From: Chondrosia reniformis
Taxonomy: Eukaryota > Porifera > Demospongiae > Chondrillida > Chondrillidae
DNA length: 64,000 bases
Assembly: GCA_947172415.1 (NCBI GenBank)
Contig: OX359199.1
Location: forward strand, 5,391,384-5,455,383
Reading direction: 5' to 3'
Positions 30,801-33,800 of the stretch are shown one piece after another. Under the pieces are notes generated by a model. That model saw only the letters and a list, made by a program, of their open reading frames with translations. It was not told where the DNA came from and made no database searches. A program made the translations under genes and the position numbers. Each line of letters begins with the position of its first letter. The first letter of the stretch is position 1.

Positions 30801-33800
30801 CATCAACAGTCAATTTAGTACATGGAGAAATTCTTTGGGCTTGTACAACACAAGCAGTAACATAAAAGACACAACTGATGATTTCACCAATATACTCTGT
30901 GGTTTGGGTAGTGATTCACTTAAGTTTCTGTTGGAATGGGAATCACTTAAAACGTTGTGATTAATTGATTAGACAACAGTTGTGAAGAACTGTAGCTTCC
31001 CTGTATACCAGTTTTGATTAGATAAACATATTCTTCAGCCAGCCTTATCATTTCATCTTGCATTACTTAACTGACCACAGAAGGAGATAGAATAGTTATA
31101 CAAGGGGTTTCCCTTGCTACTATAGGAGTACACATGAAATGAGAATTGGGGTAAGAAAACAATTTAAAATTAGTTACATTGAAGGTACCTGGAACAGAAT
31201 TCTTGGAAACATCATTTACTGTTATTGGTAAAGGTAATTAAAATATTATTGCCTATGCATTGTGAATACCGAAAAAGAAAAGGTATCACTTAACCATTTG
31301 AGAGGTAATTTCAAAATCATTATTTAGTCATATCCAGAGCAGGTTACCTAATAATGACTATGCTATAGTGGAGTGTATGATTTGGGATTATGCAGAAATG
31401 TAAAAATTGAAATTAGTAGTAGTGGTAATTAATGAAAACAAATATCATGAATTGTAATAAATTCCAAGCCAGTATATGAAAACAGTTTCGTACAAAATCA
31501 TAGGTTAAAGTGTTTGTGTGTATATATAGGTGTTAAATCTCAATAAATAACTATTCAACCATACCTACATACATTCCCCCATTTCTCAATGCAAGATTCC
31601 CTCAAACAAACTGGTTTGGCCCTCAAATAATACTCACCCTTCTACCTCAGTAGACATGACAGCAGTGCTATTTCCATTTTAGAAAAATAATATCATCTTT
31701 GTTCCTGTTTGCACACAGGATGTCCTAGTATAGACAGATGATCAAAGGCACACAGCCACATACTGTCTGCAACATTCTAAACTTGGTTGCCTGACCTCTG
31801 AGGTCAAGGGTATATACGTAGCTAATAACTGAAGAATACCTCTCTAATGTTAATCAACCATAAAAAGGAAGTATATGGTTTGGAGTAACATTCCCTTCAT
31901 TTGAAGGAAGGGGTTTCCCCTTTGTAATAGGTTATCAAATGAATATTTAAGAGCAAGCAATTGCAGCTAAAACACAACTTGTAAATTACCAGTGAATTTA
32001 TAGCAGCAGTTTAAATCTCTACCGTTCAAGCCACAACCTTGACTTCAAGACTGTTTTACAGGAATTCCATTAATTTCCATACTGCCATTTTCTCTCTCCA
32101 CTATTTCTCCACTAGTAAGAGTGACCATGTATTTAGCAATGGGACAGACAGTTCTGATTCTCACGGCAGTTTTCATTACAGCTCAGTCAGCAGCCATTGG
32201 GGGACTCAGTAGCTGCAATGACACTACAGACATGGCACAACTGAAGCAAGACTTGGCCCTATCTCATTTCCAAATGATGCAGTTCACTCTTCCAGTTAAC
32301 ATTAGGTATGAGACTGTGGCAACCACATGGCGTAACCTGACAGTACTACCGGTTAGAATAGCCAGTCATCCGGATGAGGTGCCATGTGAAAACTGGGATA
32401 GAAGTGGAACTGATCATGCTTACAATCCAAGCAACAGTCTTTGTGGGTGGAGTTATAAGTGCAATTACGACCCTGGCAGACTCCCTCACTACATGTTCAC
32501 TGCCGAGTGTAACGAGAGCACCAAAATAACGATAGAGTCGAGCAACTATTATTGCAGACCAGTTATTAGACCCATTAAGGTTCTGAGGTTTGCTGGCTGC
32601 CATCCCCATGAAACATGGAACCTGGAGAATGTCCTGGTCAGTGTTGGATGTGTACCAAAGAAGATCACATAAAGAAATGGAACTAGTTAATTGCTAATGT
32701 ACGTACTTATAGATCTGCTGTTCATCACTTTTAAGCTTTTACATATGTGTGCAAACACCCTTAGGACTTGCCAACAGACAGCTGTTTTATTGCATATATT
32801 TATATAAAGAATTACATTAAAGCATTGGTTACATTAATGTGGTTTTGTATTAAAAAGAAACCAAACTTGCTCCGTAAAAATACAACATTTATAATCATTG
32901 GTGCTATTTGGGCATAATAAGCCAAAAAGTAAAGAGAGATGGATGAACAGCCAAAGTTAACAAAGACTCCCAGGGTCATTGATGAAGGGTAGAATTACGT
33001 ACTTGAATTAACTATCTAGTCCAGTACTGAAGATTGAAGAGAAGAAATTTTTCTCAAACAAGTCAAAACATATAGTGTGTGTTTATCTTACATCATAGGT
33101 ATGAAAATACCTAAGTATATAGCACATACGTACTATATATGTAAGTAAATATGTATATACATATATTGATTCTATTATTAGTGGTCCATGAGATATATAT
33201 ATATATATAGATAGGTACATGTGTATGATAAGGGAGAGTTAATTGCACAAAGCCTGCCTAAAGGCTATATTTGATATACATATGATAATCAATGTACGTA
33301 TACAACACATACTGTATGTACATGTCAACACTCGTGAATGCTTGTTCAGTAAATACCTTGTTTACGTGTTCCAATGCCAGGCTTAGCTTCTCATCCTTCT
33401 CAAGACATTTGGCAAGCTCGTAGTGCACATGGCACCTCAGCTGCTCCTGCAGACTAGAGATGACAACGTACAAAAGTTAATTCTCTACACAACTATTGTC
33501 GAGCACAGAAAAGCGGTTGGAAACCTTACTACCACAATCATATAAATTTAAATGCAAAAAGACATGGCTTTACAGATATCTAAAAGGCAAGCAATGTGAA
33601 TACAAAGGATGCATGTGGCTTAAGGCAAATCAAAGTCCCAGACAGCATTCTCAAAGCTTGTGTTCCTTAACACAGAAACACTGTGTTTCTTTGTGTATGT
33701 TAACATTCTGCAACTGAGATTAACAATAGATCAATACATTATTAATCTCTGTGTGTATACCAGCTAACAGTAAACACATTAAGGACTACACGTACACACA

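Follow-up and report, generated by a model that had tools for sequence, protein, structure and literature searches.

The window analysed here, a 64,000-nucleotide stretch of the genome of the kidney sponge Chondrosia reniformis, a demosponge (assembly odChoReni1.1, C11:5391384-5455383), carries on its plus strand an open reading frame (ORF) of 181 codons plus a stop codon at 32127..32672, which encodes a protein of the interleukin-17 (IL-17) type. The open frame around the ORF, from stop to stop, spans 209 codons. The preliminary description of this locus had reported a 181-residue protein with eight cysteines and two characteristic motifs of 15 and 12 residues, and translation of 32127-32672 (+) bore this out: the cysteines were residues 30, 87, 106, 112, 128, 143, 158, and 175, both motifs were present, and the protein ended in VGCVPKKIT. 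Its guess that the host was an early-branching animal was also right. The N-terminal stretch of approximately 22 residues (32127..32192, +) was hydrophobic and resembled the signal peptide described earlier, as judged by eye and not with a signal-peptide program; the first 28 residues have this hydrophobic character in all 13 copies of the gene that we describe below, and the protein is putatively secreted. The IL-17 domain occupied residues 104-176 (32436..32654, +), corresponding to positions 1-78 of the 81 in the Pfam profile, and the same match was obtained in the genome search at C11:5423819-5424037. The earlier term "intronless" held for the coding frame, and an intron may lie in the 5' untranslated region. 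A possible poly(A) signal, ATTAAA, recognized by consensus only, lay at 32816..32821 (+), 144 bases past the stop codon, and a second one lay 33 bases further.

The ORF was located wholly within a 2,823-bp GT...AG intron (30534..33356, minus strand) of an oppositely oriented CFAP46-like gene, CFAP46 being a cilium gene, as the antisense nesting first described would have it, and the minus-strand exons on both sides of this intron joined in phase across a stretch of 12 residues. A tblastn search of the window alone with a piece of CFAP46 from the PDB gave matches at 33461-33294 (E 8.6e-5), 30536-30402 (E 1.1e-6, 44% identity), and 29959-29729 (E 0.009). The first two marked the CFAP46-like exon before the host intron (33357..33464, -), whose end at the intron was set by the splice donor, and the exon after it (30402..30533, -), whose end was set by the acceptor. 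A further match to PDB CFAP46 (9ijj) lay at 28267-28611 (-) with E 0.0019. The Pfam profile of the CFAP46 N-terminal TPR region matched 34744-35100 (-) at E 0.022 and 14.9 bits, below its cut-off of 27, and no PDB match at E ≤ 1 was found for that exon. When six minus-strand frames were joined, PDB CFAP46 was the only match at E ≤ 1 (E 0.00012). The single matches were modest; because their order, strand, and splice phase agree, we judged the assignment of the host gene as CFAP46-like to be firm. Adjoining the CFAP46-like frame, 35100-35513 is a tandem repeat that is open in several frames on both strands.

When the ORF was scanned against Pfam, no family other than IL17 (PF06083) was reported at E ≤ 1; its score was 48.2 bits (E 1.5e-12), approximately twice the curated cut-off of 24. 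The best sequence match in the PDB was IL-17A (E 1.4e-5), and IL-17A and IL-17F made up 24 of the 26 rows at E ≤ 10 and ranked first, the remaining two being unrelated proteins at E 0.21 and 0.29. A profile made from the 13 copies gave IL-17A, IL-17F, or IL-25 in 25 of 26 PDB rows at E ≤ 1, with the best E of 1.3e-7 to IL-17F. Cysteines for at least two knot disulphides were present, C106/C143 and C128/C175 in the proposed pairing. We treated a complete C-terminal GCxC as typical of the family and not as defining it; in the sea urchin, both C-terminal cysteines are missing from IL-17 subfamilies 3 and 9 (PMC5457136). That the window gene belongs to the IL-17 family, taken apart from its mode of signalling, is in our judgement almost certain.

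The gene had been presented as a divergent IL-17. The IL-17 identity stood, and the gene proved to be one of 13 IL-17-like ORFs. A search of the whole genome (117,379,552 bases in 15 contigs) with the Pfam IL17 profile found such ORFs at 13 places at E ≤ 10, 11 of them above the curated cut-off; the search scores only its best candidates, and 13 may be a lower bound. One copy each lay on chromosomes 11, 13, and 5, two on chromosome 3 (one above the cut-off), and eight on chromosome 14 (seven above the cut-off), the last near 130 kb (one), 343-348 kb (three), and 914-940 kb (four). The window gene had the highest IL17 score of the 13 and was the sole copy found on chromosome 11. Every copy lay in one open frame of 169-218 codons with a hydrophobic N-terminus by eye, and IL17 was matched at E ≤ 1 in all 13 when they were scanned singly; four other Pfam families appeared in these scans, each weakly and in one copy only. 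With the window protein as the query, 12 of the 13 places were recovered and L013 was missed; an additional match at E 0.92 was taken as chance. The invariant columns of the 13-copy alignment were C106, R118, P120, C143, W164, and G174. Among recent pairs, nonsynonymous (dN) was lower than synonymous (dS) divergence, as compared without a significance test (L005-L006, 0.093/0.221; L002-L003, 0.261/1.365), and the pair L012-L014 was near saturation (0.633/2.77). Against three paralogs, the window gene had dN of 0.72-0.75 and dS of 2.2 or beyond measure. The paralog tree was mostly without resolution and had long branches, and it gave the window gene no supported sister.

Alignment of the copies suggested how the knot cysteines may pair. 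Proposed disulphide I would join Cys106 (32442..32444, +), which is invariant in 13 of 13 copies and corresponds to the Ser that precedes PW in PDB IL-17F, to Cys143 (32553..32555, +), the second cysteine of a CxC; in the alignment of the 13-copy profile, both C106 and C143 stood opposite serines of IL-17F. Proposed disulphide II would join Cys128 (32508..32510, +) to Cys175; these two were both present in eight and both absent in five of the 13 copies, never one alone (Fisher P = 0.0008, relatedness ignored). At the C-terminal GCxC site (32649..32657, +), Cys175 was kept and the second cysteine was replaced by Pro177, a replacement that would take away one of the two cysteines of proposed disulphide III. 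The VGCTC-to-VGCVP change pointed out in the preliminary description was therefore real, and it was accompanied by the loss of the apparent partner, the first cysteine of the CxC: by spacing, residue 141 of the window protein is Tyr at this position, and the alignment column is a gap. Both cysteines were found in 10 of the 13 copies, that is, in 10 of the 12 paralogs, and both were absent in the window gene and L012; L014 lacked the first CxC cysteine and had its terminal cysteine two residues further on (raw count 10/0/1/2, raw Fisher P = 0.0385, relatedness ignored). C112 and C158 showed no covariation. Because the change of the terminal cysteine coincides with the loss of its apparent CxC partner, one whole knot disulphide, III, is probably missing as a unit from the window protein, and the altered disulphide pattern that had been anticipated is probable under the proposed pairing. 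The terminal cysteine of vertebrate IL-17 pairs with a cysteine at a different place, and for that reason disulphide III is assigned by analogy.

The genome also contains a candidate adaptor gene. At E ≤ 10, the SEFIR profile matched a single gene in the genome, a two-exon gene on chromosome 4 (L009:827-2010, equal to C4:8085141-8086324, +), in which a Death domain (28.6 bits, cut-off 22.6) was combined with a SEFIR domain (35 bits, cut-off 23). TIR_2 scored 30.7 bits on the same gene against 35.0 bits for SEFIR, so that the bit scores lean to SEFIR over TIR. Besides itself, the gene used as a genome query recovered a single weak match (E 1.76), which contained two stops. The product looks like a candidate CIKS/MyD88-like adaptor, not a membrane receptor. 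The profiles IL17R_fnIII_D1, IL17R_fnIII_D2, and IL17_R_N had no genome match at E ≤ 10 in searches run without a positive control, which do not establish absence. TIR_2 had eight genome matches at E ≤ 1, one of which was the SEFIR gene. Another, L033:1174-1698 (C10, about 7.52 Mb), contained a hydrophobic span in one frame and a TIR domain in the frame after it; it was rejected as an IL-17 receptor, the TIR domain adjoining the hydrophobic span, and is a candidate Toll/IL-1-type receptor. L032:655-3294 (C11, about 4.61 Mb) was an 880-residue single frame with two TIR_2 stretches and an SLOG cluster4 match below the cut-off, in a TIR-TIR-SLOG-like layout.

Taken as a whole, we consider it fairly likely that the locus holds a genuine sponge IL-17-family gene with approximately 13 paralogs, whose product would be a secreted knot dimer lacking disulphide III that acts as an immune signal toward the Death-SEFIR protein and is expressed from its own promoter. 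The secreted protein would assemble into an IL-17 cystine-knot dimer, which disulphides I (C106-C143) and II (C128-C175) would hold together and from which disulphide III would have been dropped as a unit, and would carry a cell-to-cell immune signal via a putative receptor that feeds the Death-SEFIR protein encoded on chromosome 4; the gene would be read independently of CFAP46. The IL-17 pathway includes a TRAF step, with TRAF/NF-kB downstream, and TRAF/NF-kB would likewise follow the Death-SEFIR protein in the sponge. The proposed order agrees with the general IL-17 pathway, in which a secreted dimer acts through a receptor, a SEFIR domain, and an adaptor on NF-kB (PMC8353272).

Several observations weigh against this reading. 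Single-sequence AlphaFold models of the mature protein and of its core were both poor (predicted local distance difference test scores of 40.2 and 44.1); because of this, we infer the IL-17 cystine-knot dimer fold rather than observe it. The C-terminal GCxC that is typical of the family is incomplete in the window protein (VGCVP). A hydrophobic span was not found in the two exons of the Death-SEFIR gene, further upstream exons being possible, and a membrane SEFIR receptor was not found in the genome with the SEFIR and receptor-domain profiles at E ≤ 10, again without a positive control. The search for SEFIR receptors thus yielded the Death-SEFIR gene and no membrane receptor, as would be expected if the window gene encoded a homologous cystine-knot protein with another role in the sponge, such as a growth factor or matrix component, and not a ligand of a SEFIR pathway. 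We regard this as unlikely: IL17 was matched in all 13 copies, whereas the four other families were matched weakly and in one member each, the Death-SEFIR gene is present, and a receptor may have exons that are split or have diverged. Such a receptor could escape a search made exon by exon, because the two IL-17 receptor genes of the sea urchin have 16 and 17 exons (PMC5457136).

Other points against the preferred reading, that of an active sponge IL-17, concern this copy and the cysteine pairing. The window gene is known here from its sequence, and because dS to the compared paralogs is at or near saturation, selection on the window copy could not be measured. When cysteine changes were placed on the tree, with the displaced terminal cysteine of L014 counted as absent, there were approximately two changes per cysteine column and one or two independent pairs; with so few changes per column, the sign test cannot reach significance and the pairing is not statistically independent. 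An IL-17 gene that had dropped into the CFAP46 intron, for example by retroposition, and is now an unexpressed, dead or dying copy losing its cysteines would account for the two missing cysteines that 10 of 12 paralogs both have and for its being the only copy found on chromosome 11, and the unmeasurable selection on it is compatible with this reading. Such decay appears quite improbable for a gene that retains a full-length open frame and an N-terminus resembling a signal peptide and that scores higher against IL17 than any of the other 12 places; moreover, decay would not preferentially remove two cysteines that look like partners. Since all 13 copies found lie in one open frame, recent retroposition cannot be read from the lack of introns.

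Other features of the window were recorded in the same scans. At 2605-3015 and 4113-4724 (+) there were Fibronectin type III matches, the second below the cut-off. The minus-strand region 39186-44291 combined a PX match (44115-44291) with a 579-codon frame (39186-40922) that carried SH3 matches and an SNPPRP-type repeat, a layout that we take to resemble a p47phox/Tks-type adaptor. Two adjoining open frames lay at 45536-46626 (+), the second with sulfotransferase matches below the cut-off. Very similar ankyrin-type frames at about 58.8, 60.4, and 62.0 kb (58829-62169, -), of which the one stretch scanned, 59177-59545, gave a Pfam ankyrin match, suggest tandem duplication.

The presence of this gene family in a demosponge bears on the published origin of IL-17. 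One survey reported no IL-17 in Amphimedon and proposed an origin in nematodes (PMC4517768); a second reported none in Amphimedon or Hydra, found it in two other cnidarians, and named Cnidaria as the most ancient phylum with IL-17 (PMC8353272). Contamination of the assembly or gene transfer from a bilaterian would reconcile the sponge gene with its absence from Amphimedon in both surveys, and is exceedingly improbable for a gene inside a CFAP46-like intron of a 7.6-Mb, chromosome-size contig that belongs to a divergent set of 13 on five chromosomes and has the cysteine pair described in non-chordate IL-17s. A chromosome-anchored demosponge family of about 13 copies, together with a Death-SEFIR gene, runs counter to both the nematode and the cnidarian origin, and suggests that the IL-17 family is older than these surveys placed it. 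An earlier report of IL-17 genes in a sponge was not found in the titles and abstract starts of the open-licence papers listed by our searches, and we do not claim priority. More tentatively, and with somewhat less than even confidence, we propose that diversified IL-17 signalling predates the sponge split and that an ancestral ligand had all three knot disulphides. Separate lineages and paralogs would then have lost one disulphide each, as a unit: the chordate line would lack I, five copies on chromosomes 14 and 3 would lack II, and the window gene would lack III. Sponges would thereby have a set of structurally tuned cytokines with which to manage their dense bacterial symbionts; the metagenome of C. 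reniformis has been described as that of a typical high-microbial-abundance sponge (PMC12181767). In a sponge of this type the origin of cytokine signalling becomes testable, and the paired cysteine losses form a natural series in which the knots differ in the missing disulphide.

Compared with vertebrate IL-17A and IL-17F, the sponge protein had the same W..D..R.P core, the AxC and VGC cysteines, a C-terminal domain, and, by eye, a signal-like N-terminus. It differed in having cysteines C106 and C143 where PDB IL-17F has serines, in lacking the last cysteine of VGCTC, and in its one-exon coding frame, in contrast to the two introns of 29 of 34 vertebrate genes (PMC4517768). The extra cysteine pair at the sites of the chordate serines is shared with invertebrate IL-17s of molluscs, annelids, and the sea urchin (SpIL17): the two cysteines of the third knot disulphide of invertebrate IL-17 are serines in chordates (PMC4517768), and the same contrast was described between sea urchin and vertebrates (PMC5457136). 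Invertebrate IL-17 genes generally have 0-3 introns (PMC4517768), and the tandem clusters of genes with one to three exons in the sea urchin (PMC5457136) resemble the arrangement found here. What sets the window gene apart from these is its sponge host and the absence of one C-terminal cysteine together with its apparent CxC partner. Another sponge sequence with an IL17 domain is the Pfam entry A0A1X7VXB1 of Amphimedon queenslandica, compared here by description only; its domain lies at 359-442 of a longer protein, and the authors who cited it did not find it in the Amphimedon genome (PMC8353272). The gene at C4:8085-8086 kb has Death and SEFIR in one gene, as do CIKS/Act1 and a placozoan protein that was left open between MyD88 and CIKS (PMC6321704), the likeness being one of domain layout; of three ctenophores, two were also reported to have SEFIR domains (PMC11797021). 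The IL-17s of sea urchin larvae are early actors in the gut epithelium when the larvae are exposed to Vibrio (PMC5457136), and by analogy IL-17s may play a similar role in sponge epithelia. In the sponge Halichondria, the link between lipopolysaccharide-responsive genes and the KEGG IL-17 pathway runs through TRAFs, with no IL-17 ligand named in the accessible text (PMC8242945). The window gene thus adds a member to a known family, in a host that is informative and with a disulphide pattern that is probably derived; it does not represent a new kind of system.
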